Positions 21,086 to 37,116 of a stretch of 64,000 nt of DNA are shown here, piece by piece. The notes below the pieces were generated by a model. That model had not been told where the DNA came from, searched no databases, and saw nothing but the letters and a program-made list of their open reading frames with translations. The DNA is from Streptomyces venezuelae (lineage in GTDB: Bacteria; Actinomycetota; Actinomycetes; Streptomycetales; Streptomycetaceae). Made by a program: the position numbers and the translations under genes. The stretch covers positions 3,496,001 through 3,560,000 of the forward strand of contig NZ_CP029193.1 in the NCBI RefSeq assembly GCF_008642355.1, in the 5' to 3' direction. Each line of letters opens with the position of its first letter. The first letter of the stretch is position 1.

Positions 21086-21389
21086 GGGGGCCTCTCGGAG
21101 AGCGGATCGGAACCGGCTGACACGCATCAGCAATCGCCCGGCGGTCCGGGTAATTCCCCGTCCCGATGGTCGATTCGAGCCACGTGCGCCGAGTCCGGAC
21201 GTCGCAACGGCACACGTACGTAGAACAGTTGATGCTTTGACGTTATCGCCGAATGACATCGGTACGAACAGGCCCCGTTCCCCGAATACTCGTCCCCGAC
21301 CGGAAGCCGCACCCGCAGGCCTCCGGTCCCGGCGGCCCGGACATCCCGGGCGTACCGGCTACCGGCCTTTCCCCGGAAGGGACACCCCC

Positions 21390-22070
21390 ATGAACAGATC
21401 CCGCATCAGCTTCCTCGCCACCCTCGGCTCGGCCGCCCTCGTCGCCTCGCTGGCCGCCGCGCCCTCCGCGCTCGCGGCCCCGGCTCCCGAGACGGTCAAG
21501 CCCTCGTCGACGTACGCCACGTCGTCGTACGTCGGCTCGGCCGAGGAGCAGGCCGCCAACAAGAGGTTCTTCGACGCCGTCATGAAGTCGGCGCTGAAGA
21601 AGCAGGCGGCGAAGCCCGGCATCCAGGTCGTCACCGTCACCTACAACACCAGCCGGGCGCCCAGCTTCCGCACCCAGATAGCCCGGAGCACGCAGATCTG
21701 GAACTCCTCGGTCAGCAACGTGAAGCTGCAGGAGACCAGCTCGACCGGTAACTTCCAGTACCGCGAGGGCAATGACCCGCGTGGCTCGTACGCCTCCACC
21801 GACGGGCACGGCCGCGGGTACATCTTCCTGGACTACCGGCAGAACCAGCAGTACAACTCCACGCGTGTGACGGCGCACGAGACGGGCCACGTTCTCGGTC
21901 TGCCCGACCACTACTCGGGTCCGTGCAGCGAGCTGATGTCCGGTGGCGGCCCCGGCACGTCCTGCACCAACGCCTACCCGAACGCGCAGGAGCGGTCCCG
22001 GGTCAACCAGCTCTGGGCGAACGGCCTCACCGCCTTCAAGGACAAGGGCGCGCTGACCAAGGTCCGCTGA
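21390..22070 (+). CDS. snpA: Snapalysin-type secreted metalloprotease (M7)
   Basis: 226 aa. Sec signal [20 protein letters not shown] ending near ALAAPAP, a short propeptide, then a small zinc protease with [11 protein letters not shown] (HExxHxxGxxD, third ligand Asp) and the snapalysin Met-turn [11 protein letters not shown]. Length fits preprosnapalysin. GGAAGGG precedes the ATG. The LysR gene that often lies divergent from snpA in Streptomyces is not present; the 304 bp upstream hold no gene. Degrades extracellular protein. Confidence 0.92.
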
Positions 22071-22178: not shown

Positions 22179-24065
22179 ATGGGTACACATGCTCAGCGGA
22201 AGAAGCCGCGTCGCCGCGGCCGGCGACGGATCGTGGACTACCCGCGCGCCGGAAGGAGCGGCGTCCGGCGCTGGCTCCCTTCGTGGCGCCAGCTCCTCGG
22301 CGCGGCGGGGCTCTGCGCCGCCTCCGTCGCCACCCTCTTCGTCTGCGTGTACGTCAGCGTGGACATCCCCGACGAGAACGCGGCGGCCCGCCGCGAGGCC
22401 AACGTCTACTACTGGTCCGACGGTTCACAGATGGTCAGCACCGGGGCCGTCAACCGGCAGAACGTCGAGCTGGACCAGATCGCGCCGTCCGCGGTCGACG
22501 CGGTGATCGCCGCCGAGAACGAGACCTTCTACGACGACGCCGGGGTCTCCCTCAAAGGCCTGGCCCGCGCCACCGTGAACATGGCACGCGGCCGCGAGAC
22601 GCAGGGCGGCTCCACCATCACCCAGCAGTACGTGAAGAACACCTACCTCTCGCAGGACCAGACGGTCACACGGAAGGTCAAGGAGTTCGTCATCGCCCTG
22701 AAGGTGGACCGCAAGAAGAACAAGAGCGAGATCCTCAAGGGGTACCTGAACACCAGCTGGTTCGGGCGGGGCGCCCATGGCATCGAGGCCGCCGCCCGCG
22801 CCTACTACGGCATCCCGGCGAAGGAGCTGGACCCCAGTCAGGGCGCGATGCTCGCCGCCATGCTGAAGGGCGCCGACCTGTACGACCCGGCCGTCAGCGC
22901 CGCCAACCACGAGCGGGCGCGGGAGCGCTGGGCGTGGATCCTGGACCGGCAGGTCGAGGTCGGGCTGATGGCGAAGAAGGAGCGGGCGAAGTACCGGGTC
23001 TTCCCCGAGCCCCGCAGCCGGTCGCGCTCCACCAGCCTCGGCGGCCAGACCGGCTACCTCGTCGACGTCGCCAACCGCTACCTCAAGCAGCAGACCGGCC
23101 TCACCGACGAGGAGCTGGCCCGCGGCGGCTACGAGATCCACACCACGTTCGACAGGACCAAGGTGCACCGCCTGGAGCGGGCGGTGCGGCGCGTCGTCGC
23201 GCGCGACCTCGACCCGGAGAAGCGGCCCGCGGACCGGCACGTGCAGGTCGGCGCGGCCTCGGTGCGGCCGTCCGACGGGGCGCTCGTCGCGCTGTACGGC
23301 GGGCCCGACGCCACCACGCACTTCACCAACAACGCCGACACATCGGGCGTCCCCGTGGGCTCGGCGTTCAAGCCGTTCGTGCTGGCGGCGGCGTTGCAGT
23401 ACGGGGCGGCGCGGCAGGGCGTCGGGGCCGACAGCCACTACGCGGCGGACGGAGTCCTGCGCCGGGCCGACGGCGCCCCCGACCCCGACCGGCCGACGCT
23501 GCGCGAGGCGCTCGTGTCCGGCGGCAACGCCACGTACGTACGCCTCGGCAAGGACGTCGGGCGGGACACGGTGCGCAGGACCGCGGTCGCGGCCGGGATG
23601 CTGCGGCACAGCATGGCCCGCCTGGAGCCGACGTTCTCCATCGGCACGTCGACGCCGAGCGCGATCCGCATGGCCACCGCGTACGGGACGTTCGCCAACG
23701 ACGGCGTGCGGCGCGACCCGTACTCGGTCACGAAGGTCGTCAAGGACGGTGAGCCGCTGTCCGGCCTCGCACCCCCCTCGTCGCGGCGCGCGCTCGACCC
23801 GCAGGTCGCCCAGGAGGTCGCCGACGCGCTGCGCACGGCGGGCAAGCGCATGGGGGTGGACGTCGCGGCGGGGCGCACGGGCGACCAGGACCGGCTCAGG
23901 TCGGCCTGGTTCGCGGGCTTCTCGAAGGACCTGTCCACGGCGGTGACGCTGTTCCGGCTGCGGCCCGGCGAACCTCAGCTGCTGCCCCTGTCGGGGGTGG
24001 CCGGGAAGAAGTCGGAGCGGGGGAACGTGCTGCCGCCGCGGATCTGGAAGGAGTACGAGGGGTAG
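22179..24065 (+). CDS. Bifunctional penicillin-binding protein (transglycosylase/transpeptidase)
   Basis: 628 aa class A PBP. Arg/Lys-rich cytoplasmic start, one TM (about residues 37-60), GT51 glycosyltransferase domain (AAENETFYDDAGV, GGSTITQQYVKN, GYLNTSWFGRGAHGIEAAA), then transpeptidase motifs: SxxK as GSAFKPF, SxN as SGGN, and where KTG is expected, AGRTGDQDRLRSAWFAGF, i.e. RTG. The Lys-to-Arg change in the third motif is unusual and could alter activity or beta-lactam affinity. The ATG has no clear ribosome site. Builds peptidoglycan at the outer face of the membrane. Confidence 0.9.
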   Translation: MGTHAQRKKPRRRGRRRIVDYPRAGRSGVRRWLPSWRQLLGAAGLCAASVATLFVCVYVSVDIPDENAAARREANVYYWSDGSQMVSTGAVNRQNVELDQIAPSAVDAVIAAENETFYDDAGVSLKGLARATVNMARGRETQGGSTITQQYVKNTYLSQDQTVTRKVKEFVIALKVDRKKNKSEILKGYLNTSWFGRGAHGIEAAARAYYGIPAKELDPSQGAMLAAMLKGADLYDPAVSAANHERARERWAWILDRQVEVGLMAKKERAKYRVFPEPRSRSRSTSLGGQTGYLVDVANRYLKQQTGLTDEELARGGYEIHTTFDRTKVHRLERAVRRVVARDLDPEKRPADRHVQVGAASVRPSDGALVALYGGPDATTHFTNNADTSGVPVGSAFKPFVLAAALQYGAARQGVGADSHYAADGVLRRADGAPDPDRPTLREALVSGGNATYVRLGKDVGRDTVRRTAVAAGMLRHSMARLEPTFSIGTSTPSAIRMATAYGTFANDGVRRDPYSVTKVVKDGEPLSGLAPPSSRRALDPQVAQEVADALRTAGKRMGVDVAAGRTGDQDRLRSAWFAGFSKDLSTAVTLFRLRPGEPQLLPLSGVAGKKSERGNVLPPRIWKEYEG

Positions 24066-24215: not shown

Positions 24216-26057
24216 ATGGAGGGGGACGCGGTCAACGCGGACGGGGGAACCAACTCACCCATGGATCACGCGAGTTGGCGGGTACGTCTGCGACGCTGGG
24301 CGGCCTCGGGCAGCGGCGACGTGCTGGGCGCCGGGGTGCTGTTCGGCACCGACCGCGTGCTCACCTGCGCGCATGTGATCCGCGACCCGGCGACGGGACA
24401 GCGCCCCGACCGCGTACAGGTCGAGTTCCCGCTGCTCCAGGGCCTCACCCGGACTCCGCACCGCACCGCGACCGTCGCCGCGGGACACTGGGTGCCGCCC
24501 TTCGGCAAGGCGCAGGGCGACCTCGCCGTCCTCGTGCTGGACGACCCCGCGCCCCTCCCCTCCTCCGTGACCCTGCACCGCACCCTCGACTACCGGGGCG
24601 CCACGGTCCTCGTCGACGGGTTCCCCGAGTACCAGTCGGGCGGGCAGTGGCTCACCGGGGTCTGCCGGGGGCCCGGCGGGCAGGGCGACGAGCGGGTGCA
24701 GATCGACCTCACCGGGGCGGGCGCGGACTCCGGTCAGCGGCTGCGGGGCGGGTTCAGCGGTGCGGGCGTACGCGAGGAGGGCAGCGACCGGCTGCTCGGG
24801 ATCCTGGCGCAGGCCGACGAGCGGGGCGAGCACGGGTACATGATCCCGGCGGCCACCGTCGCCAAGTACTTCCGCCGCTTCGCCGAGCGGTACGTGACCG
24901 GGCCGCACGCCATCCCCGGCCACCGCGTCGTCTCGGCGGACGCCGCCCGCACCGCACGCCCGCACGGCCTGCAGCGCACCGTCACGCGCTGGCTGAACGG
25001 GGACGTGGACGCCTGGGACACCGAGGTCCTCTTCATCGCCGAGGACGACGACCGGGCACGCCAGGCGCTGTACGTCGTCCTGAACATGGCCGACCGCGAG
25101 CAGTCCCCGCAGCTGGCGGTGCGGCCCGTGGGACCCGGCGGCGACGCACCGCGGGACGGCGGCGACTCGCTCCTGTCGCGCGCCGGCATCGCGCCCCGCG
25201 TCGGCAGCATCGGCCTCGTCCTCGACCTGGAGGGCGCCGCACTGGAGGACCCCGACCAGCCGGAGCTCCGCGAAGCCCTCGCCGTCCTGCGGCACGAGCT
25301 GCGGCACGCGGCGGGACGGCACCCGGGAGGCCGGCCGACGGCCCCGCGGCGGCGCCCCGCCGTCGCCGTGCTCTACGCCGACCGGTCCGCCACCGAACCC
25401 GCGGCGGCGGCCAAGGCCCTCGGCGAACTGGCGGCCTCCGGCGCCCGGCTGCTGCTCGTGGTGCGCTCCAGCACGCACGGCTTCACGTACGCCCTCGCGG
25501 AGAAGCTGCTGCCCGCCGAGCGTGCCGCACAGTGGCTGCAGCGCATCGGCACCCGCGTCGACGCGCTCGCCGACACCGAACGCAGCGCGCGGCGCCTCTT
25601 CCACCGCGTCGAACCGCACGTCGTCGACCCACCGGTCGCCACCGGGTACGCCGCGCGGGCCGCCCTGTGGACCGTGCAGCTCAGCAACGAGCTGCGCCCG
25701 CTGACGGGCCGGGGCGGGCCGCGCCTCCTGGAGAAGCTCTCGTACGCCGAACAGGCCGTGGACACCTACCTGCTGCGGGCCGAGCGGGCCGAGAGCGAAC
25801 TGCGCGCTGTGCTCGACGAGCATCTGCGGCTGCGCGGGCTGCTCCGCGACCACCTGGCGCGGCTCGCCCGGCGCGGCCTCGCCGAGCACCCGGACGCGGT
25901 CGGGCCCTACCGCGCGGCGCAGCAGCTGTTGCTGGCCGGGCCCTGCCCGCTGGCCGACGCCGAGCGGGCGGTGACGGCGTTCGCACGCGTGGTGCGGCGG
26001 CTCGCGGACGTGGAAGAGGGTGCGGCCGGGAACGCGGGCGCGGGTGGTGACGTGTGA
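24216..26057 (+). CDS. Trypsin-like serine protease, first gene of PknG-like operon
   Basis: 613 aa, no signal peptide. Residues about 20-225 are a chymotrypsin-fold protease with triad His53 (LTCAHVI), Asp102 (QGDLAVLVL) and Ser181 (GGFSGAGV). The C-terminal 380 residues are a helical region with no named domain, including GLVLDLEGAAL and an Arg/Glu-rich end. GAGGAG precedes the ATG. It is followed without gap by the kinase gene (GTGA overlap). Cytoplasmic trypsin-like domains in such operons often activate or cut partner proteins; here the target is unknown. Confidence 0.85.
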   Translation: MEGDAVNADGGTNSPMDHASWRVRLRRWAASGSGDVLGAGVLFGTDRVLTCAHVIRDPATGQRPDRVQVEFPLLQGLTRTPHRTATVAAGHWVPPFGKAQGDLAVLVLDDPAPLPSSVTLHRTLDYRGATVLVDGFPEYQSGGQWLTGVCRGPGGQGDERVQIDLTGAGADSGQRLRGGFSGAGVREEGSDRLLGILAQADERGEHGYMIPAATVAKYFRRFAERYVTGPHAIPGHRVVSADAARTARPHGLQRTVTRWLNGDVDAWDTEVLFIAEDDDRARQALYVVLNMADREQSPQLAVRPVGPGGDAPRDGGDSLLSRAGIAPRVGSIGLVLDLEGAALEDPDQPELREALAVLRHELRHAAGRHPGGRPTAPRRRPAVAVLYADRSATEPAAAAKALGELAASGARLLLVVRSSTHGFTYALAEKLLPAERAAQWLQRIGTRVDALADTERSARRLFHRVEPHVVDPPVATGYAARAALWTVQLSNELRPLTGRGGPRLLEKLSYAEQAVDTYLLRAERAESELRAVLDEHLRLRGLLRDHLARLARRGLAEHPDAVGPYRAAQQLLLAGPCPLADAERAVTAFARVVRRLADVEEGAAGNAGAGGDV

Positions 26058-28453
26058 CGGCCGTGAAGTCCTGTCCGCACCCCGGGTGTTCGGGCACCGT
26101 GACGCCGACCGGGTACTGCCTGGCCAGCGGCGAGCGCGTCGACCCCGCGACCGGACTGCACTCCGCCGCGGACGTGCAGCCCGCGCCGTCGGCGCCCGTG
26201 TCGGAGTCGGCACCGAGACCCCCCGACGCGGCGACATCCGGCGAGGAGTCCTCCCAGCACTGGATCGTCGACCTGGGCGTCGCCCCAGAACCGCCGCGCC
26301 CGGCCCACGTCGCCCTTCCCCCCGAGCACCCCGACCCCACGGTCCTGCCCGAGATCACGCTCCTGGACCGGGCGGACAGCGCGGGCGACAACCCCGTCGC
26401 CCCCAGCGGGCTGCCCCTGCCGCCCGGCACCCTGCTGGCCGGTCAGTACCGCCTCGTGCGGCCCCTCGGGTACGGCGGGATGGGCGAGGTCTGCCTCGCC
26501 CACGACACCAAGGTCGACGACCGCGCGGTCGCCGTGAAGATGCTCCACGCCGAGCTCGCCACGGAGTCGTACAGCCTCCTGGAGGGCGAGCGCAGAGAGC
26601 TGGTCGAGCTCAACCACGACGGGTTCATCCGGGTGTTCAACTACGGGCACCACGCCGGGGTCGGGGACTTCCTCGTCCTCCAGTACGTCGACGGGCTCAA
26701 CCTCGAAGAGGTGCGGGCCCGCGCCCACGAGCACCCCGAGGAGTTCGGCGGCGACCGCTTCCTGGAGTTCGTCCTCGCGTACGGCGTGCGGATCCTGGCG
26801 GCGCTCGCGCACCTGCACGCCCCCGAGCGCGGCAAGGTGTACGGCGACCTCAAGCCGCCCAACGTCATGCACGACGGCTCCACCACCAAGCTCGTCGACG
26901 TCGGCAGCGTCCGCCGCGCGGGCGCCCCCGGCCTCACCACCGCCCTCTACCGCGCGCCCAGCGTCGGCCCGCACGGCGAATCCGAGCCGCAGGACGACCT
27001 GTTCAGCCTCGGCGAGACACTGCGCACCCTGTGCGGGCTCGGCGCGACCCGCCACGACCTCGCCGACCTCGCGGCGCTCGCCCCGCTCGACGACGCCACC
27101 GGGGGCCACCGCGGACTCGGTCTCGTCTCCCTCGCCAGAGCGCTGCGCCGCGCCACCCGCACCGCCCGCGCCGGACGCTTCGCCACGGCCCGCGAGATGG
27201 ACGAGCAGCTGCGCGGCGTCTTCCGGGAACTGCGGTCCCTGCGCACGGGCGCCGAGACGTTCGAGCCCTCCCCGCTCTTCCTCCAGTCCGCGTACGCCCT
27301 CGACGGCGGGCTCGGCGCCGCCCCCGAGGTCCGGCACTGGGCCACCGCCCCGGCCGCGCCGCACCACCCCGCCCCCGGCCCGCCCGAAGTGGCCGGGCGG
27401 CTCCCCGTGCCGCGCCCCGACCCGGACGACGACCACCACGGCGAGCTCAGCAGGCTCAGCGACGACGACCCCGAGGCGCTGCTCCAGCACACCGGCGACT
27501 GGCGGGACTCCCCCGAGGTGCACCTGCTGCGGTGCAGGCTGCGGCTGCGGGTGGCGCTGCGGTCCGAGGACGGGGACCTCACCGGCGCCGAGACCGCGCT
27601 CGCCCTGGCCGAGGACGCCATAGGGCCCGCGAACGGACCGCACGACTGGCGGCTCGACTGGCACCGGGGGCTGCTCGCCCTGGCCCGCTCCCGGGTGCCG
27701 GAGGCCCGCGGCCGCTTCGACCGGGTCTACGCCGCGATCCCCGGCGAGTACGCCCCGAAACTCGCCCTCGGCTACTGCGCCGAACAGCTCGGGCGGCTGC
27801 ACGAGGCCCTCACCTTCTACGAGGCCGTGCGGCTGCGGAACCCCTCGCTGGGCAGCGCGGCGTTCGGCGCCGTCCGGGCGCGGCTCGCCCTCGGCGGCCC
27901 CGACGCCCTCACCGACGCCATCGCCGCGCTCGACGCGGTCCCGCAGCACTCCCGGCACCGCACCGCCGCCCGCACGGCCGCCGTCCGCATCCGCGTCGAC
28001 CACGCGCGGGACGCCGAGGGCCTCGGCGCTGCGGTGCGCGCGCTGGGCCGGCTCTTCTCCGCACACGGCCTGACCGACGAACCGTCGCGCGTACGGATGA
28101 AGACGGAGGTGTGGGGCGCGGCGCACCGGCTCCTCGGCGACGCGGACGGCGGGGGCGGGGCGATCACCGGGGCCCAGCTGCGTGCCGTCGCCGCGCACGC
28201 CGATCCCCTGCTCGAATTCCCCGCCGACGTACGGGCGCTCCGCACCGACCTGTCCCGCTTCTACCGGGTCCTGGCCCACCAGGCCGCCCGGGACGCGCCG
28301 ACGCCGGACGACGGCATACCGCTCGCCGAGATCCTCCTCGACCGCGCCTACGCGGTCCGCCCCTTCGGCTTCCTGCACGCACGATTCGGCAAGGACTTCC
28401 CATGGCTGGGCAAGAAGATCAGGAACCGGCCGCCTCGGTCGGCCTGGAAGTGA
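26054..28453 (+). CDS. PknG-like serine/threonine kinase with TPR domain
   Basis: 799 aa with the PknG layout: short N-terminal zinc knuckle, kinase, TPR. The knuckle has Cys7, Cys12 and Cys22, but the fourth position is Ser25 (YCLAS). Kinase: PLGYGGMGEVCLAHD (138-151), Lys162, YGDLKPPN with Asp265 (the HRD His is Tyr/Gly-like as in PknG), DVG at 282-284. TPR-like helices follow from about 480 (LALGYCAEQLGRLHEALTFYE). In mycobacteria PknG senses amino-acid supply with GlnX and GlnH and phosphorylates an FHA protein. Coupled to both neighbours; no FHA protein is in the window. Confidence 0.9.
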   Translation: MTAVKSCPHPGCSGTVTPTGYCLASGERVDPATGLHSAADVQPAPSAPVSESAPRPPDAATSGEESSQHWIVDLGVAPEPPRPAHVALPPEHPDPTVLPEITLLDRADSAGDNPVAPSGLPLPPGTLLAGQYRLVRPLGYGGMGEVCLAHDTKVDDRAVAVKMLHAELATESYSLLEGERRELVELNHDGFIRVFNYGHHAGVGDFLVLQYVDGLNLEEVRARAHEHPEEFGGDRFLEFVLAYGVRILAALAHLHAPERGKVYGDLKPPNVMHDGSTTKLVDVGSVRRAGAPGLTTALYRAPSVGPHGESEPQDDLFSLGETLRTLCGLGATRHDLADLAALAPLDDATGGHRGLGLVSLARALRRATRTARAGRFATAREMDEQLRGVFRELRSLRTGAETFEPSPLFLQSAYALDGGLGAAPEVRHWATAPAAPHHPAPGPPEVAGRLPVPRPDPDDDHHGELSRLSDDDPEALLQHTGDWRDSPEVHLLRCRLRLRVALRSEDGDLTGAETALALAEDAIGPANGPHDWRLDWHRGLLALARSRVPEARGRFDRVYAAIPGEYAPKLALGYCAEQLGRLHEALTFYEAVRLRNPSLGSAAFGAVRARLALGGPDALTDAIAALDAVPQHSRHRTAARTAAVRIRVDHARDAEGLGAAVRALGRLFSAHGLTDEPSRVRMKTEVWGAAHRLLGDADGGGGAITGAQLRAVAAHADPLLEFPADVRALRTDLSRFYRVLAHQAARDAPTPDDGIPLAEILLDRAYAVRPFGFLHARFGKDFPWLGKKIRNRPPRSAWK

Positions 28454-29868
28454 GCCAGGTCGTCGAGCTGCCCCGCCCGCGCACCCCGGGCGGGCAGGAC
28501 ACGGCCCGCATGTACGCCGTCCTCACGGTGACGGTCCGCAGGGCGGGCGCCGCGCACGCGCCGCCCGCCGCAACGGTGCGCGACCCGGCCGCAGCGGATG
28601 CGGGGGCGGCCGGGGCCCGCCTCGCGGAGGTGCTGCTCATCGACCACTCCTCCTCCATGGTGATGCCGCCGAGCCGTCTCGCCGCCGCCCGCGCCGCCGC
28701 CGTCAGCGCGCTGGCCCGCATCCCCGACGGCTCGCTGTTCGCTCTGGTCGCCGGGGGCGACAGGACCGCCATGATCTATCCCAGGCGGCCGGGTCTCGCC
28801 GTCGCGCACGCCGAGTCGCGGGCCGCCGCCGAGGCCGCATTGCACGACTGCACCCCGGGTGGCGGCACCGCGATGGGCACCTGGCTGGAGCGGGCCCGGC
28901 AGCTCTTCCGGGAACTGCCGGCCACGGGCGACGGCGGCGGCTGGGTGCGGCACGCGCTGCTGCTCACCGACGGCAAGAACGAACCCGGGTACGAGACGCG
29001 GGCCGAGCTGCAGGAGCGGGTCGAGCGGTGCGCGCGGGCCTTCGCCTGCGACGTCGTGGGCATCGGCGACGCCTGGGAGACCGAGGAACTCCTGCTCATC
29101 GCCCGTGCGTTGGGGGGCGGCGCCCGTGCCGTCGCGGATCTGACGCGGCTGCCCGACGAGCTGGCCTCGCTCACCGGGCGGGCCGCCGGGCGTGACGTCA
29201 CGGGCCTGCGGCTGCGCCTCTACCACCGCGCCGGGGTGCGTCCGCACTCCTTCGAGCAGGTCCATCCCACGCGGGTCGCGCTCCACCCCGACCGCGTCGA
29301 CCTGTCGGGTGTCGGGACGGGCGCGGGCGGTCCCGTCGAGGAGTACGACCTCGGCCCGTGCGGCCAGGAGACCCGCGCCTATCTGCTGTGTGTCGGCGCG
29401 CCCTACGACCCCGCCCAGCTCGGCAAGGAGCTCCTCCTCACGGAGGTCGAACTGGACGCGGAGAGCCCGGCGCCGCTGCGGCTGCCCGCGCCGCAGCCCG
29501 TGCTGATGCGCTGGACCGACGACCCCGACCTGTACAGCCGACTCGACCCGCAGGTCGCCCACTACCGGCAGGAGGAAGAGCTGCACCGCACCTTCGAGGA
29601 GGCCTGCGCGGAGCTGAAGCTCGGCAGGCGGTCGGCCGCCGAGGCGCTGCTCGGCACCGCGTGGCGGCTCGCCGCCGAGACCGGCGACACCGCGATGCAG
29701 GAGCATCTGCGCCGCCTCGTCCGCGTCCGCGACTCGGCGAGCGGGCGGGTCGAACTCCGGGACCGCATCGCGAAGTTCGACGTCGAGGCCGCCCGCATCC
29801 AGACCAGCACGACCGTCCTGCCCGGCGTCCACCTGCCCGGCCCACGGCCGCCCGGAGCCGCCCGGTGA
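28402..29868 (+). CDS. von Willebrand factor A domain protein
   Basis: 488 aa. The VWA domain (about residues 73-260) keeps a full MIDAS: D81-x-S83-x-S85 (LLIDHSSSM), Thr in GGGTAMGTW and Asp in LLTDGKNEPG. The rest is a beta-rich region and a helical tail (HRTFEEACAELKLGRRSAAEALL). No signal peptide, so it should work inside the cell, possibly as a Mg-dependent adaptor for the kinase or protease. The start ATG lies 52 bp inside the kinase gene; its stop overlaps the next gene (GTGA). Confidence 0.88.
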   Translation: MAGQEDQEPAASVGLEVSQVVELPRPRTPGGQDTARMYAVLTVTVRRAGAAHAPPAATVRDPAAADAGAAGARLAEVLLIDHSSSMVMPPSRLAAARAAAVSALARIPDGSLFALVAGGDRTAMIYPRRPGLAVAHAESRAAAEAALHDCTPGGGTAMGTWLERARQLFRELPATGDGGGWVRHALLLTDGKNEPGYETRAELQERVERCARAFACDVVGIGDAWETEELLLIARALGGGARAVADLTRLPDELASLTGRAAGRDVTGLRLRLYHRAGVRPHSFEQVHPTRVALHPDRVDLSGVGTGAGGPVEEYDLGPCGQETRAYLLCVGAPYDPAQLGKELLLTEVELDAESPAPLRLPAPQPVLMRWTDDPDLYSRLDPQVAHYRQEEELHRTFEEACAELKLGRRSAAEALLGTAWRLAAETGDTAMQEHLRRLVRVRDSASGRVELRDRIAKFDVEAARIQTSTTVLPGVHLPGPRPPGAAR

Positions 29869-31043
29869 CGGCCCTGTGGCGCGCCGTCCCGCCGCTCGCC
29901 GCCGACGCGCTGCGCGCCCTGCGCCGGTACGCGTGGCCGGTACCGCTGGCCGAACGTCCGCGCAACCGCCGGTACTTGCGGGACCGGCTCGTCGCGCTGC
30001 CGCTGCTCACCGTCGTCGCGGCCGTAACGTTCGGCTGGGCGTACGCGGACGTGCGCGAGGACTCGGCGACCCTGCGGGACAGCTTCCTGCCCGCGCTCGT
30101 CGGGCTCGCCGAGGCCGAGACGTCCCTGCGCATCGCCGACCGCGAGGCCGCGGAGAGCCTGGCGGCCGGGGAGGCCGTACAGCTCAGCGGGTTGAGCAAG
30201 CGGTACACCACGCGCACCACCAGGGCCGTGCAGCACCTCAACCAGGTGGCCCGCAGCGGCGCCCTGACCACCGCCGAACGCCAGGAGCTCGACGTCGTCT
30301 CCGGGCTCGTCGTCGACTACGGCACCTGGATCACCTTCGCCCAGAACAACGTCGCCGACCCCACGCTCCGGGACGCCGGACTCTCGTACGCACGCAGCAT
30401 GCTCTGCTCGGCCCCCGGGCCCGCGCCCACCGGGAAGGCCGGCGCGGACGGCTATCCGGCCTGCCGTCCCGCCACCGGTTCGCGCTCCGACGCGACCGCC
30501 GTCGTCGACCGCATCTCCTCCCTGGAGGACAGGCTGCGCGACAGGCTCGCGGACCGGGCGGCGCCGGGCGGCCGCGTCCTCGCCACGGCATCCCTTTCCG
30601 CCCTCGCCCTGGTGCTGCTCGCGTGCGGCCACTGGCGCACCCAGGTGTTCGTCCACCACCGGCTGCACCTCCACGTCAGCGTCCCGCTGCTCGTCGCCGC
30701 CCTGCCGCTGCTCGCCGTGCCGTTCCTGACGGCCGACGCCGTCCTCGCCCACCGGGCGCAGCAACGGGTGGTGTCGACGGCGGCCGGGATAGCCGAGCGG
30801 ACGACCCCGGCGATCGAGTCGACCGTCGACGACGACCCGTTCGGCGCCCGCCACCCGCTCCTGATCCGGTCCCTGGACGAGCACGCGAACCGCGACCTGG
30901 CGGCGGGCCGCCTCTCCTCGCTGGACGGGGTCGCGCCGTGGGTGGCGCCCGCCGGTCTCCTCAGCGCGGGCGTCACCGCGGTCACCCTCCACGCCTACCG
31001 CCGCGAGTACGTCCTCGTCTCCCGCCCAGGAGCCACCCCATGA
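29865..31043 (+). CDS. GlnX-like membrane signalling protein
   Basis: 392 aa with about four TM segments: one near residues 43-60 (LPLLTVVAAVTFGWAYAD), then a large extracytoplasmic helical domain (DSATLRDSFLPALVGLAEAETSLRIADREAAESL) like four-helix-bundle sensor domains, and three more (LSALALVLLACGHW, VPLLVAALPLLAVPFL, APAGLLSAGVTAVTL). Size, topology and position beside a PknG-like kinase and a binding lipoprotein match GlnX, which in mycobacteria and corynebacteria relays ligand binding to PknG. The sequence alone would not name it. GTG start and ATGA stop overlaps on both sides. Confidence 0.75.
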   Translation: MTALWRAVPPLAADALRALRRYAWPVPLAERPRNRRYLRDRLVALPLLTVVAAVTFGWAYADVREDSATLRDSFLPALVGLAEAETSLRIADREAAESLAAGEAVQLSGLSKRYTTRTTRAVQHLNQVARSGALTTAERQELDVVSGLVVDYGTWITFAQNNVADPTLRDAGLSYARSMLCSAPGPAPTGKAGADGYPACRPATGSRSDATAVVDRISSLEDRLRDRLADRAAPGGRVLATASLSALALVLLACGHWRTQVFVHHRLHLHVSVPLLVAALPLLAVPFLTADAVLAHRAQQRVVSTAAGIAERTTPAIESTVDDDPFGARHPLLIRSLDEHANRDLAAGRLSSLDGVAPWVAPAGLLSAGVTAVTLHAYRREYVLVSRPGATP

Positions 31044-32290
31044 GTCCCCGGACCGTGTTCCGCACCCTCCTCGCGACCTGTCTGCTCGCCGTCACCGCGG
31101 GTGCCTGCGGGAGCGAGCGGCCCGAGACCCTCGTCGTGCTGGGGCCCTGGACCGGTCCGGAGGGCAAGGCCTTCGAGGCGATGCTGCACCGCCTCGACGA
31201 CGGCACCGGCAAGTCGTACACGTACCAGGGCACCCGTTCGCTGCGGGAGACGCTCGGCGCGCAGCTGGAGGCGGGCGACCCGCCGGACGTGGCGATCCTC
31301 AACAGCATCGGCGAACTCGTGGAGCACGCCCGCGCGGGACACCTCACCCCGCTCGACCGCGCCGCCACCGCCCGCGCCTACCCGCCCTGGGCGCCCCGCC
31401 TCGACGTCGACGGCGGGCGCCGCACCTACTGGGTGCCGCTGAAGGTCGACCTGAAGAGCCTGGTGTGGAGCAAGGAGGGCAGCGCCCGTGACCGTCCCGC
31501 ATGGTGCGTGGGGCTCGCCTCGCAGGCCACGTCCGGGTGGCCCGGCACCGACTGGATCGAGGACATCCTCCTGCACCAGGCGGGCCCCGCCACGTACACG
31601 CGGTGGGCCACCGGGGACGTCCGCTGGCGCGACCCGCGGGTCCGCAGGGCGTGGACGACCTGGGCCGAACTCCTCGGCAGGCGCACGCGGGCGGCCGTGG
31701 ACCGGTCCCTGACGACGCCGTACGTCGGTCCGCGCGGTCTGCTCGACTCCCAGCGGCCCCGCTGCACGCACGAGCACCAGGGTGCCTTCATCCGGTACGT
31801 GTACGCGCACGACCGGGTCCGCGTCGAACCCGCGGCGGGCTACCTGGGCGGGCGGCCCGAGCACGACGGCGCGTATGAGGTGGCGGGCGACATGGCCGCC
31901 GTGTTCAGCGGCGACCCGGCGGCGCGCGCCCTCGTCGACCGCCTCTCCGGCGAGCGGGCCCGCGCGCTCTGGCGGGAACGGGCCTCGGACGGGCTGCAGC
32001 CGTTCTTCCCCGACGCGAGCGACCCCCAGCCGACCGACGCGACGGGCCGGCGCATCGCGGACATCCTCACGGCGAAGGCGCGGACGCTCTGCTTCGACGC
32101 GTCGGACGTGATGCCGCCGGGCGTGCGCGACGCGTTCCACCGGGCCGTCCTGCAGTACTTCGGCGACCCGACGGAGAAACGCCTCGACGAACTCCTCGGC
32201 CGGCTGGACACGGTCCGCACCGAAGCCGCGAAGGACGCGGCCCCCGGCCACCTGCCGGAGTCGGAGGTCTGCGCCCCGCCCGGCGGCTGA
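31040..32290 (+). CDS. Extracellular solute-binding lipoprotein
   Basis: 416 aa. Lipobox TAGACG (Cys23), then the family-1 (sugar-type) binding fold: VVLGPWTGPEGKAFEAML, GDPPDVAILNSIGEL, YWVPLKVDLKSLVWSK and GWPGTDWIEDILLHQ. No permease or ATPase genes follow, so it is likely a ligand sensor rather than a transporter subunit. In the glnX-glnH-pknG pathway the binding lipoprotein is an amino-acid type; here it is a different fold class, suggesting another ligand. Last gene of the operon, converging with the next gene. Confidence 0.85.
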   Translation: MSPRTVFRTLLATCLLAVTAGACGSERPETLVVLGPWTGPEGKAFEAMLHRLDDGTGKSYTYQGTRSLRETLGAQLEAGDPPDVAILNSIGELVEHARAGHLTPLDRAATARAYPPWAPRLDVDGGRRTYWVPLKVDLKSLVWSKEGSARDRPAWCVGLASQATSGWPGTDWIEDILLHQAGPATYTRWATGDVRWRDPRVRRAWTTWAELLGRRTRAAVDRSLTTPYVGPRGLLDSQRPRCTHEHQGAFIRYVYAHDRVRVEPAAGYLGGRPEHDGAYEVAGDMAAVFSGDPAARALVDRLSGERARALWRERASDGLQPFFPDASDPQPTDATGRRIADILTAKARTLCFDASDVMPPGVRDAFHRAVLQYFGDPTEKRLDELLGRLDTVRTEAAKDAAPGHLPESEVCAPPGG

Positions 32291-32314: not shown

Positions 32315-34165
32315 TCAGCGGCTGAGCTCCTCCGGGCAGGGTGTGCCGCGCGGCAGCTGGTAGGGCGAGCCGAGCCGGTAGACGCCGGCCTTCGGGGCGA
32401 GCAGCTCGACCCACTTGTCGCCCGCCCGGTCCTCCCGCGCCTCGGACAGGCAGCCGTTGATGTTCTCGTACACCTTGGGCCGCCTCTCGTTCAGCTCGCG
32501 CTGCCGCTTCGACGCCTCGGTCTCCTGCGGCGCCTTCACGCCCTTGCCGTGCTCGTCGACGATGCTCAGCCACGGCGAGTACGGGATGCGGATCAGGACG
32601 CGGCCCGGCTTGTCGACGCGCAGCGTCATCTGGCCCTGCTCGGCGCGGGTCACCACGGCGTTCGGCTCGGCGAGCGGGCGCGGATCGGTGACCTCGTACA
32701 GCTGCCAGTTGTCGTCGACCCACACCTTCTTCAGGTACGGCAGGCCGTCCCTGATGAGCTGCGCCTCGCGCTTGCCGCCGTCGCCGTCGGGCTCGCCCTT
32801 GGGGAGCGCCACGTAATGCACGGACCAGCGCTGCAGCCACTCGTGGTAGTTCGCCGAGTTCAGGGTGTCGTCGTAGAAGAGCGGGTTGCGCTCCATGTCG
32901 GCCTGCCGGTTCCAGCCGCGCGCGAGCTGGACGTACGCGGGGAGCGCGGACGCCTCGCGGTGGCTGCGGGCCGGCACCACTTCGAGGCGGCCCTTCGCGG
33001 CGCCCTTCTCCTTCAGCTCGTTGACCAGCGGCGCGACCTCACGCGTCCAGGAGGCGTCGGAGCGGGTGTGCACGATGTCGTCGACGGCCTTGAAGCCGAT
33101 CCACCCGGTGAAGCCGACGAACGCCACGATGATCACGTACCAGGTACGGGACTTCGGGACCGCGTACGGCAGCGCGGCGATCAGCGCGACGCCCGCGAAG
33201 GACATCGCGAGACGCGAGATGTTGGAGCCGATCTGCGAGCTGATCAGCCAGACGCCGAGCACGAACGCCGCGTACACGGCGGTGGTGATCCGTACGGTCT
33301 TCCACTGCTTCGGCACGACGAAGTAGACGATGATCGAGGCGATCAGCGGCAGCGACGCCGAGCCGAACGACATCGGCTGCGTGCCGGAGAACGGGAAGAG
33401 CCACGCGGAGAGGCCCACGACGACGGCGGGTGCGATGCCCAGCGCGTACGCGCCCGGGTACCGCTTGCTGAGGAACAGCGCGACGGCGACGAGCCCCACG
33501 AAGAGACCGGCGACGGGGCTGCCCATCGTCGCGAGCGCCGCGAACGGAGCGGCGACCAGGGCCTTCGCCCACCGCTTGTAGCGCCAGCGGTGCGGCCAGC
33601 AGAAGACGGCGGCGACGGCCGCGAGCGCGAACATCTGGCCGAGGCCGTAGGTCACGCGGCCCGACACCGCGTTGGCGAGCAGCGCGAAGACACCCGCGGC
33701 GACCGGCCACAGCAGCCTGCCCTTCACCGCGCGGCTGCGCATGAGGATCATGGTGAGCAGCCCCGCCGAGACGGTGCCCGCGATCATCATCGTGGTCCGC
33801 ACGCCGAGCACCGACATGAGGTACGGCGAGATCACGCTGTACGACACCGGATGCATGCCGCCGTACCAGCCCAGGTTGTACGCCGACGCCGGGTGCCGCC
33901 CGACGAACTCGGCCCAGGCGTCCTGTGCCGCGAGGTCGCCGCCGCTGTTGGCGAAGACGAGGAACCAGACGACGTGCAGCACGGCGGCGACCGCCGTCGT
34001 GATCGTCACCGGGTGGCGCAGGAAGCGCTTCTGCCACGGTTGCGCGGGCCCGCCGCCGGGCGCACTGCGCTGGGCCGGCAGCTTGACCCGCCCACCGGTG
34101 CGGGGGCCGTCGCCCGTGTCAGGTGCGGCGGCGTCGTCGGCGCGCGTCGGCTCCGCTGTTGCCAC
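32315..34165 (-). CDS. Multi-pass membrane protein, GT-C-like
   Basis: 616 aa with about ten TM segments in residues 40-390, then a soluble C-terminal domain. An early loop after TM1 has AAQDAWAEFVGRHPASAYNLGWYGGMHP with acidic residues at the place used for catalysis in GT-C glycosyltransferases. The C-terminal part (VHYVALP, WVDDNWQLYEVTDPRPL, IPYSPWLSIVDE) is typical of actinobacterial uncharacterised membrane proteins with similar topology. It may transfer sugars to a cell-envelope polymer; this is inference. The start GTG at 34163-34165 follows GGGGAGAG. Confidence 0.7.
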   Translation of the reverse strand: MATAEPTRADDAAAPDTGDGPRTGGRVKLPAQRSAPGGGPAQPWQKRFLRHPVTITTAVAAVLHVVWFLVFANSGGDLAAQDAWAEFVGRHPASAYNLGWYGGMHPVSYSVISPYLMSVLGVRTTMMIAGTVSAGLLTMILMRSRAVKGRLLWPVAAGVFALLANAVSGRVTYGLGQMFALAAVAAVFCWPHRWRYKRWAKALVAAPFAALATMGSPVAGLFVGLVAVALFLSKRYPGAYALGIAPAVVVGLSAWLFPFSGTQPMSFGSASLPLIASIIVYFVVPKQWKTVRITTAVYAAFVLGVWLISSQIGSNISRLAMSFAGVALIAALPYAVPKSRTWYVIIVAFVGFTGWIGFKAVDDIVHTRSDASWTREVAPLVNELKEKGAAKGRLEVVPARSHREASALPAYVQLARGWNRQADMERNPLFYDDTLNSANYHEWLQRWSVHYVALPKGEPDGDGGKREAQLIRDGLPYLKKVWVDDNWQLYEVTDPRPLAEPNAVVTRAEQGQMTLRVDKPGRVLIRIPYSPWLSIVDEHGKGVKAPQETEASKRQRELNERRPKVYENINGCLSEAREDRAGDKWVELLAPKAGVYRLGSPYQLPRGTPCPEELSR

Positions 34166-34239
34166 TGGAGGCTCTCCCCGTGTCGTCCATGTTTCCGGAG
34201 TACCCCGGGTCCCCGAGCTTGTGACGCTAGCACGCACGC

Positions 34240-34272
34240 GCGAGGGGAGGCCCGGGGCGGGCCTCCCCTCGC
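34240..34272 (-). terminator. Terminator after D,D-carboxypeptidase gene
   Basis: GCGAGGGGAGGCCCG (34240-34254) pairs perfectly with CGGGCCTCCCCTCGC (34258-34272). It is 6 bp past the stop of the minus-strand carboxypeptidase gene. Confidence 0.85.
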
Positions 34273-34277
34273 GGGGC

Positions 34278-36896
34278 TCAGCCGACCCGGGTCAGCTTGG
34301 CGCCGAAGCCCGGTTCGCTCAGGTCCTTCTGCAGTGCCACCGGCACCTCGACGGCATCACCCTTGCCGTCGCCGACGTGCAGCACACCGACCTCGGTGCC
34401 CGCCTTCGCCGTGTTCGGGACGGTCTTGCCCTTCATGTCGTCGAGCTCCAGCTTGACGGTCAGGCCCGACCAGCCGACGGCGGAGACGTCCTTGGTGGCG
34501 ACGAGCGGGGTCGTCCCGCCGAGACCGTCGTCGACCTGCCCGACGACCTCACCCTTCTTCACGATCGTCTTGGCCTTGAGGGCGTCCTGTCCGGCCGCGA
34601 TCAGGTTCTTGGTGACGTCGGTGACCTTGTCGATGTTGGCGACGCCGTTGCTGCCGTACTGGCCGAGGGCGGCGCCGATGATCGTCTGCTTCTTGCCGTC
34701 GATCACCTTCTCCGCGGCGAAGAGGATGTTGCCGCCGGCCGCGGTGGTCGTACCGGTCTTGATGCCGATCGCGACGGTCGGGACCAGCTTGAAGAAGTTG
34801 GTCTGCTTCTCGTTGTTGAGGTCCATGTAGCTCGGCTGGCGGGAGATCTCGTTGAAGACGGGGTTCTCCATGGCCGCGCGGCCCAGCTTCACCAGGTCCT
34901 CGGCGGTCGACACGGTCGTCTTGTCCAGGCCGCTGGGGTCCGTGTAGTGGGTGTTCTTCATCCCCAGCTCCTTGGCGGTCTTGTTCATCTTCTCGACGAA
35001 CGCGTCCTCGGAGCCGCTCTTGCTGTCCCAGCGGGCGAGCAGCTTGGCGATGTTGTTCGCCGACGGGAGCATGACCGCCTGCAGCGCCTCGTACTCGGTG
35101 ATCTTCTGGCCCTCGGTGACCTTGACGACCGACTCGTTGGCCGGCTTGCCGGTCTCGTAGTGCTTCTGCGCGGCGGCGTCGACGGGGATCTTCGGGCCGT
35201 CCTGGCCCTTCTCCAGCGGGTGGTCCCGCAGGATCAGGTAGACCGTCATGACCTTCGCGATGCTCGCGATCGGCACGGGCTTCTGCTCGCCCGACGTGCC
35301 GAAGGTGCCGATGCCGTTGACGTCCATCGCGGCCTGGCCGTCGGCCGGCCACGGCACGTCCGGCTTGCCGCCCTCGAACTTCACGGTCTCCTGCGCGGTG
35401 AGCTGCAGGGTGGGTGTCGGGAGCGGTCGCACGACCTGTACGACTGCAAAGACGACCAGCAGGAGCAGGACGAGCGGCGTCCAGATCTTGACCCTGCGCA
35501 CGGCCGTGCGCACCGGCGTCTCGGGCGGCGGCGGGGTGTTGGTCAGCTCGGCGAGCAGGTCGATCGGCGGCTTGGGCGGCAGCGGCTGCTGCGTGGTGCG
35601 CTCGACCGGGGGCGGGACGGCGGGGCCCGCGGGGGCGGTGCCGGCCCTGGGCGCGGGCGTCTTGGGCTCCGCGGTGACCGCACCCTTCGGGCCCTGCGCC
35701 TGCCCCTGCTTCGGGGCCTGCTTCGGGCCCGGCTGCGGCGCGGGCTTCGCCTTCGGCCCGTCGAGCGGCTTCAGCGCGACGAACTTGCTGGTCCGCTCGG
35801 CGTCGCCCTCGGGCTTCGCGGTTTCCTTCTTTGCAGTTCCCTTTGCGCCTTCGCCCAGCTTGAGCATGGTGGTGGGCTGGTCGACGTCCTTGCCCCCGGC
35901 CTTCGGGACCTTCGGCGCCTTGAAGACGGCGGTGGCCTGGTCGACGCCGGTGGACTTCGCGTCGGCGGCGTCGGCCTCGGCCGGATCGTCCTCGGCGGCG
36001 GCGTCGAGCTCGGGCGCGGGATCGGACTCCGGCTCGGCATCAGCCTTCGACGCGGCCTCGGGCCAGGCGGGAGCCTCGGACTTCGACGCGCCCTCGGCCC
36101 ACGAGGGAGCCCCGCGCCTCGCCACGGACTCGGCCTTCGCCGCGGACTCCGGCTCCGCCTCGGCCTTCGACGCGGGCTCGGCGTTCGACGCGCTTTCGGT
36201 CCTCGACGTGGCCTCAGCCTTCCCCGCGGGCTTCGGCTCCGCCTCGGGCTTCGGCTCCGCCTCGGGCTCGGTTTCGGCCTTCGGCTCGGGCTTCGCCTCC
36301 GGGCTCGGCTCCGGCTTCGCGGAAGCCGCGGGCCCGGCATCGGCCGCCCCGGCCCCGGCCGCGAGGTCGGCCGCACCGGCGGTTTCGGCCTTGTCCGATG
36401 CCCTGGACTTGTCCGACGTCCCGGACTTGTCCGACACCTCGGGCTCGGCCGTCGTTCCCGACTTCGCCGCGGCGGCGTTCTCCCCCTCCGGGTCAGCGTC
36501 CGAGTCCGCCTCGGACGCTGACTCCGGCTCGTCGTCGGACGTCGCGACCCACGCCGCCACCGCGTTCCGCAGCCGCGCGTCCCCGTTGGTCTCGGTCCCG
36601 GGCGCTTCCGCCGCCCCGGAACCCGTCTCCTCGGAGTCGTCCGCATCGCCGGAACCGTCGGCGCCGTCGGAACCGGTCGCCGCCTCGGCGACGTCCTTCG
36701 TCGAGAAGACGGCGGTCGCCCGGTCCGCCGGGATCTCGTCCCGCACCTGCGGCGTCTCGCGCGTGATCGCGAGACGCGGGTCGCGTTCCTCCGGCGCCGG
36801 CCCGGAGGTCTCCTCCGGGGTCGGATTCCCCGACGACTTCCGCTGCTTCGATCTGTCGGGGGTCTCGCCCGCCACCGATGCCTCCTCGTACGCCAT
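34278..36896 (-). CDS. D-alanyl-D-alanine carboxypeptidase with long disordered cytoplasmic tail
   Basis: 872 aa. The first roughly 490 residues are disordered, rich in Glu/Pro/Ala/Lys with many short repeats (KPEPSPEAKPEPKAE). A single TM (WTPLVLLLLVVFAVVQVV) is followed by a serine peptidase S11 domain with SIAKVMT (SxxK), PSANN (SxN) and IKTGTT (KTG). Typical enzymes of this family are about 380-430 aa, so the tail doubles its length. The tail contains three spaced motifs, RATAVFSTK, DQATAVFKAPK and DQPTTMLK, that look like phospho-Thr sites for an FHA domain. It trims peptidoglycan pentapeptides outside the cell while being signalled from inside. Confidence 0.9.
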   Translation of the reverse strand: MAYEEASVAGETPDRSKQRKSSGNPTPEETSGPAPEERDPRLAITRETPQVRDEIPADRATAVFSTKDVAEAATGSDGADGSGDADDSEETGSGAAEAPGTETNGDARLRNAVAAWVATSDDEPESASEADSDADPEGENAAAAKSGTTAEPEVSDKSGTSDKSRASDKAETAGAADLAAGAGAADAGPAASAKPEPSPEAKPEPKAETEPEAEPKPEAEPKPAGKAEATSRTESASNAEPASKAEAEPESAAKAESVARRGAPSWAEGASKSEAPAWPEAASKADAEPESDPAPELDAAAEDDPAEADAADAKSTGVDQATAVFKAPKVPKAGGKDVDQPTTMLKLGEGAKGTAKKETAKPEGDAERTSKFVALKPLDGPKAKPAPQPGPKQAPKQGQAQGPKGAVTAEPKTPAPRAGTAPAGPAVPPPVERTTQQPLPPKPPIDLLAELTNTPPPPETPVRTAVRRVKIWTPLVLLLLVVFAVVQVVRPLPTPTLQLTAQETVKFEGGKPDVPWPADGQAAMDVNGIGTFGTSGEQKPVPIASIAKVMTVYLILRDHPLEKGQDGPKIPVDAAAQKHYETGKPANESVVKVTEGQKITEYEALQAVMLPSANNIAKLLARWDSKSGSEDAFVEKMNKTAKELGMKNTHYTDPSGLDKTTVSTAEDLVKLGRAAMENPVFNEISRQPSYMDLNNEKQTNFFKLVPTVAIGIKTGTTTAAGGNILFAAEKVIDGKKQTIIGAALGQYGSNGVANIDKVTDVTKNLIAAGQDALKAKTIVKKGEVVGQVDDGLGGTTPLVATKDVSAVGWSGLTVKLELDDMKGKTVPNTAKAGTEVGVLHVGDGKGDAVEVPVALQKDLSEPGFGAKLTRVG

Positions 36897-37116
36897 GCCG
36901 TTTGCCGATACTGATGCTTGCCGTGTGCTGACCGTGCGCCAAATCCGGCCGGACAACCACTGTCCGAACCGTGTACCAGTGTCCTGTGTGAGGGCTTAAC
37001 CCCCGTGGTAGACGAGAACGACATACCTACTGGTTCCCGTACATCCCGACCACGCGCTCTCGACAGACCAATGTGAGAGGGGTCACCCTGTCATTCATCC
37101 ACGCGGGGAGGCATGG

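Follow-up and report, generated by a model that had tools for sequence, protein, structure and literature searches.

Five consecutive genes on the forward strand of the Streptomyces venezuelae chromosome, at positions 24216-32290 of the 64,000-nucleotide stretch of DNA analysed here (contig NZ_CP029193.1, hereafter the window; the host genome is a single contig of 8.02 Mb), encode in order a trypsin-like protease (W1), a PknG-type kinase (W2), a VWA protein (W3), a GlnX-type membrane protein (W4) and an anchored solute-binding protein (SBP; W5). We read this five-gene block as an operon for a paralogous GlnH-GlnX-PknG-type transmembrane kinase-protease sensor, probably with a sugar-like ligand and with proteolysis as one output, and give this reading a probability of roughly 0.55; the ligand, the substrates and the direction of control are what we infer. 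Inspection of the gene boundaries reveals all five open reading frames where an initial annotation had placed them, and its claim of five successive overlapping genes holds at 4/4 junctions, each a 4-bp start/stop overlap (GTGA, GTGA, GTGA and ATGA from gene 1 to gene 5).

The kinase and the receptor-type protein were compared with the known PknG pathway, for which published work (PMC6069109, PMC9769921, PMC8546545) supports transfer of the amino-acid-binding signal of GlnH via GlnX to PknG, probably by contact with the TPR domain. W2 carries a PknG_TPR match (E 4e-39) C-terminal to a Ser/Thr kinase domain (E 1.6e-14), the layout that places it in the PknG family. Its N-terminus holds a degenerate Cys motif with three Cys; the rubredoxin profile PF16919 finds no match in W2 and, within the host genome, matches the ordinary PknG only. 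Because corynebacterial PknG lacks the rubredoxin domain (PMC8546545), this domain is an auxiliary trait of the family and not a defining one. At least two CxxC motifs precede the kinase domain in 43/79 block kinases. The kinase-domain tree comprises 81 rows and was built by a quick method with SH-aLRT support only; it separates the PknG kinases, those of the block included, from the 8 rows that represent other kinases of the host genome with support 100. All 40 canonical rows fall into a single clade (support 98). The 33 block rows are placed outside this clade, where they make up two branches at the root. By domain content and tree, then, W2 is a PknG homologue, as the initial annotation had proposed from its layout, and the grouping with non-PknG kinases that it had considered is not what the tree gives.

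W4 has no Pfam match and no BLAST match to the GlnX of the ordinary cluster. Comparison of the W4 family with a profile made from canonical GlnX proteins only nevertheless aligns 346 columns (hhalign 99.6%, E 1.4e-23), and on this profile evidence W4 is a GlnX homologue, in agreement with its first description as GlnX-like. Three of the four transmembrane segments originally claimed pass a hydropathy threshold, where the fourth is placed from the GlnX alignment; the second outside region is much shorter than that of GlnX. W5 has SBP_bac_1 as its sole Pfam match, below the cut-off (E 9e-5). Profile comparison gives no relation to GlnH (hhalign 1.2%), which leaves W5 outside the GlnH family, and fold comparison indicates a resemblance to sugar binders. 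W5 is thus probably a sugar-type protein with a carbohydrate-like ligand, and amino-acid sensing by the operon becomes unlikely, since W5 is unrelated to GlnH and has a sugar-binder-like fold. Several W5 relatives have a plain hydrophobic anchor instead of a lipobox. A plasmid search with W5 returned 36 records, all below 60% identity, where the annotated features under the matches listed are ABC-type substrate-binding or unnamed.

Inspection of W1 reveals a trypsin (S1) fold with a His-Asp-Ser triad by Pfam (Trypsin_2, E 4.8e-8, above the cut-off), alignment and fold comparison, and the triad H53/D102/S181, described as intact from the outset, is invariant in 20/20 aligned homologues and in all 37 rows of a larger alignment. 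Hydropathy analysis finds no hydrophobic signal segment in W1. Its tail matches the coiled-coil protein of the ordinary cluster by blastp (E 2.8e-8) and by hhalign (98.3%, E 1.5e-14, 128 columns; ten canonical rows, one over-long). That is to say, these alignments identify W1 as a trypsin domain placed on a protein that shares the C-terminus of the ordinary cluster's coiled-coil protein. The middle of W1 (~residues 230-430) gave the impression only of an inactive STAND-like region; the fold comparison spanned residues 2-298. In W3, Pfam finds VWA_3 (E 9.9e-11), and the MIDAS elements DxSxS, T and D are all present, which confirms the intact MIDAS first noted.

PknG_TPR occurs at two places in the host genome, in the window and at C1 2.74 Mb, of which the second alone matches the rubredoxin profile. 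This second place is an ordinary PknG cluster (L004:4625-15632, ~C1:2734624-2745631), with GlnX, GlnH, coiled-coil, PknG, PP2C, VWA and FHA genes in a row. W2 matches its PknG with E 2.2e-60 and W3 its VWA protein with E 1.6e-60 (blastp). The block kinase, VWA protein, GlnX-type protein and protease tail are all homologous to parts of the ordinary cluster. In contrast, the block lacks PP2C and FHA (Pfam on the five proteins), carries trypsin on the coiled-coil component, uses another SBP family and has another gene order. All seven parts are complete at L004, L222, L234-L236, L238 and L242-L244, and at 8/18 further loci, with a ninth showing a weak VWA match; loci L229-L232 of family f4, which we would guess to be mycobacterial, have GlnX, GlnH and PknG at most. 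As judged from these gene contents, outside mycobacteria-like genomes the VWA protein belongs to the PknG cluster by inheritance. The initial annotation had described the block as an enlarged GlnH-GlnX-PknG version with a protease and a VWA protein added; 'enlarged' fits only in part, as the PP2C and FHA parts of the ordinary cluster are missing, and the VWA protein is no addition, a homologue being already present in that cluster. Elsewhere in the host genome (L191, C1:1128567) lies a candidate GarA, an FHA protein that has an ETTST motif; motifs of this type are reported for GarA (PMC12321487).

The block recurs in other genomes. A search with W4 as bait in 121 same-genus genomes found matches in 28, the host genome included. 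Of these 28 neighbourhoods 26 were read, leaving out the host genome and G102 (match at a contig start), and both the kinase and the SBP were matched at 26/26. PknG_TPR itself was found in 115/121 of these genomes, where 52 have at least two matches, some perhaps pieces of one gene. A scan of named genomes with an SBP alignment gave at least 593 pattern matches; 534 of them passed confirmation, and the best 80 were retained: 71 from Streptomyces, 4 from Amycolatopsis and one each from Actinacidiphila, Actinomadura, Kutzneria, Streptosporangium and a Pseudonocardiales metagenome-assembled genome. Among these best 80, the GlnX-type gene accompanies the SBP gene at 77, the exceptions being two cut contigs and L099, where a block-type SBP stands alone in the stretch read. 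Gene order was counted at the 62 of the best 80 with at least 8 kb upstream. All five genes occur in window order at 40/62 (Streptomyces, Actinacidiphila, Amycolatopsis, Kutzneria and Streptosporangium), so that the arrangement is not peculiar to this strain, as the initial annotation had allowed it might be; its repetition in dozens of genomes argues that the block is not due to chance. The 40 comprise 39 plus L115, whose list starts with the VWA gene of an adjoining ordinary cluster, and include L073 although fragmented (in this Streptomyces huasconensis locus each of the five genes is broken over several frames, perhaps by sequencing errors). The other 22 comprise 13 with kinase, GlnX and SBP only, 6 with a protease-kinase fusion, GlnX and SBP but no VWA, and three odd loci (L089, L099 and L119). 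A class-wide count with the SBP profile (73/148 genomes) was not used, since it mixes in ordinary SBPs; 8 of the 73 genomes reach 280 bits. Among these 8, within 18 kb, G158 (L247) has the SBP alone and G225 (L246) the SBP and a GlnX-type gene only.

Over 41 loci, distances for the five proteins show correlations of 0.879-0.975, with SBP versus GlnX-type at 0.949, as would be seen in a unit that is inherited jointly. The composition of the unit varies between loci. Streptosporangium saharense has two PknG_TPR matches in its genome, both of them in block-like sets: L226 combines a trypsin-coiled coil-PknG-VWA set with a GlnX-type protein and a sugar-type SBP, and the hybrid L251 has such a set divergent from true GlnX and GlnH genes (GlnX 155 bits with the canonical-only profile). 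The hybrid ties the protease more closely to the known PknG pathway. Of 84 loci, 54 have a free protease and VWA together, 28 have neither, and the pattern is broken at 2 (by tblastn, L089 has VWA and no trypsin match, and L119 trypsin and no VWA match). In the 28, the protease is fused to the kinase at 11 and absent at 17; the fusions fall in two lineages on the tree, and VWA is absent at 11/11 of them. The simplest explanation of this pattern, which is no more than suggestive, would be a VWA protein that joins a free protease to the kinase and becomes dispensable once the two are fused. At a further locus, L241 (G174), a canonical-branch PknG is accompanied by a coiled-coil protein, VWA and GlnX together with an SBP of sugar type, and there is no trypsin match. 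In Streptomyces aculeolatus (L115/L222) the block lies directly behind a full ordinary PknG cluster. Tandem duplication in that species was rejected as the ancestral event, its kinase nesting in the Streptomyces block branch (a flagged long branch); this position suggests that the adjacency arose by a later move.

These comparisons are consistent with the following order of events. Outside the cell, anchored W5 would capture its probably carbohydrate-like ligand and dock on the GlnX-type receptor W4, which would signal via the TPR domain to the cytosolic kinase W2. Kinase and protease may act in one complex, bridged by VWA where they are unfused, with an output that would consist at least partly of site-specific cytosolic proteolysis, as a substitute for, or complement to, the FHA/PP2C branch that the ordinary cluster has. 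As in the GlnH-GlnX-PknG system of mycobacteria and Corynebacterium glutamicum, one operon holds a PknG-type kinase with TPR domain, a GlnX-type protein and an extracytoplasmic SBP, and no importer genes. In contrast to that system, the SBP of the block is probably sugar-type and unrelated to GlnH, a trypsin-coiled-coil protease and a VWA protein are added, and the kinase lies on a separate branch, that of the window having no Pfam rubredoxin match. Linkage of a Ser/Thr kinase gene to an SBP gene is also seen in Streptomyces SGR_4432 and SCO1468; the passage of PMC6069109 that describes these adjoining genes names no protease, VWA or GlnX partner. In the literature searched, which left most subscription journals outside, no publication on the five-gene set was found.

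Several points count against this sensor model. Interaction, substrate and ligand are all predicted from sequence and fold, and the case for sugar binding by W5 is its fold. Two further conserved positions are altered in 12/90 kinases, and the MIDAS Thr is retained in just 47/67 VWA rows. Shared genome ancestry partly explains the correlated distances. For the VWA/protease link, the Fisher p of 5e-20 is uncorrected for relatedness and counts some genomes twice, where independent tree pairs give 3 in agreement, 0 opposed and 1 without difference (p 0.25). Lastly, protease and VWA are both missing from 17/84 loci that have the kinase, receptor and SBP, so the kinase must have some further function that does not depend on the protease.

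The same 17 loci without a protease would suit an explanation in which the block is an extra input to the known pathway: a second nutrient is sensed, W2 phosphorylates the same GarA/OdhI-type FHA protein, and protease and VWA only tune the kinase. The PknG homology, TPR domain included, the lack of an FHA protein in the operon and the host protein L191 with its GarA-type ETTST motif (PMC12321487) fit it too. We nonetheless consider it unlikely, as the ordinary PknG cluster of the same genome already includes an FHA protein, the block kinases branch apart from the 40 canonical kinases and the protease triad is retained throughout; for control of a GarA-type FHA protein, the ordinary PknG is the likelier candidate than W2. 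Distinctly less probable is a defence or biological-conflict system in which the block detects an invader and protease and kinase are the effectors. Trypsin, vWA and kinase domains are indeed combined in actinobacterial operons of the vWA-MoxR ternary and GAP1-N2 GTPase-centred systems (PMC7159879), the distribution is patchy (28/121 same-genus genomes with the W4 bait), and PADLOC links W2 to PD-T4-6 kinase models (E 2.8e-25 at best), with a weak LmuA match for W1 (3.8e-5). However, the PD-T4-6 matches span the kinase domain and could be given by any such kinase. In the five proteins Pfam finds no MoxR ATPase and no GTPase, nor a nuclease or any other toxin domain; the extracellular SBP and GlnX-type receptor point outside the cell, and the flanking genes scanned are of cell-wall and housekeeping types, with a downstream neighbour common to 18/106 loci.

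Ordinary sugar uptake, with W5 serving an importer whose genes lie elsewhere and the rest of the block as mere neighbours, seems to us very improbable. SBP_bac_1 proteins normally work with ABC importers, and the SBP profile also finds many ordinary SBPs, yet the constant company of the GlnX-type gene (77/80), the SBP/GlnX-type distance correlation, the plain anchors of several relatives and the lack of ABC-transporter families in the six flanking proteins scanned all oppose it.

Coordinates of the operon genes and their domains are collected in Table 1. Pfam assigned the six flanking proteins scanned to P450, PNPOx-type, snapalysin, class-A penicillin-binding protein and D-Ala-D-Ala carboxypeptidase families, with one protein unmatched. 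None belongs to an ABC-transporter family, which upholds the initial claim of no transporter genes for the proteins with a match; the unmatched one (32315-34237) leaves that claim partial. No MoxR ATPase was found in the five operon or six flanking proteins, and an NCBIfam scan gave no match above cut-off. On the 3' side, 32315-36956 (-) encodes the membrane protein without a Pfam match and the carboxypeptidase, relatives of which occur at 18/106 and 15/106 loci, respectively, which indicates that part of the family has long occupied this chromosomal site. Just 5' of the block lies the class-A penicillin-binding protein gene (22179-24065, +), with relatives at 7/106 loci, 3 of them Amycolatopsis (28% identity), preceded by the snapalysin-type (M7) extracellular protease gene (21354-22070, +).

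Table 1. Genes and domains of the five-gene operon, in window coordinates.
Feature	Coordinates	Strand	Basis or remark
W1: trypsin-like protease, 613 aa, predicted cytosolic; alpha/beta middle region and helical tail	24216..26057	+	
W1 trypsin domain, ~residues 20-226	24273..24893	+	triad H53, D102, S181; HtrA/Deg-like fold
W1 helical tail, homologous to C3 (ordinary-cluster coiled-coil protein) C-terminus	25725..26039	+	blastp, hhalign
W2: PknG-type Ser/Thr kinase, 799 aa; N-terminal Cys motif, kinase domain, TPR domain	26054..28453	+	
W2 kinase domain (Pfam stretch)	26447..27031	+	Pkinase E 1.6e-14; active-site residues retained
W2 PknG-type TPR domain	27362..28291	+	PknG_TPR E 4e-39
W3: VWA protein, 472 aa, homologous to ordinary-cluster VWA	28450..29868	+	blastp E 1.6e-60
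W3 VWA domain with MIDAS	28630..29124	+	Pfam, alignment
W4: GlnX-type membrane protein, 392 aa	29865..31043	+	profile comparison
W5: membrane-anchored SBP, probably sugar-type, 416 aa	31040..32290	+	
W5 N-terminal hydrophobic anchor, loose lipobox (Cys23)	31040..31108	+	

The known PknG pathway was described from three amino-acid-sensing genes, and in many other actinobacteria a coiled-coil protein, PP2C, VWA and FHA belong to the PknG cluster as well. Streptomyces and some relatives have a second, reshaped version on a separate branch, with a probably sugar-type sensor and a protease. If the sensor model is true, an outside signal may become protein cutting as well as phosphorylation. We tentatively go one step further and propose a receptor class in which an extracellular SBP, a GlnX-type receptor and a PknG-type kinase would control a cytosolic trypsin-like protease, turning a sugar-like signal into irreversible cleavage, and which would be modular, with the kinase and receptor as its core and the SBP type, the protease and VWA open to exchange, fusion or loss. 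This gives a concrete ligand-receptor-kinase-protease chain that is testable in Streptomyces and, if the chain is right, PknG signalling would be a plug-in receptor system and not a single metabolic switch.
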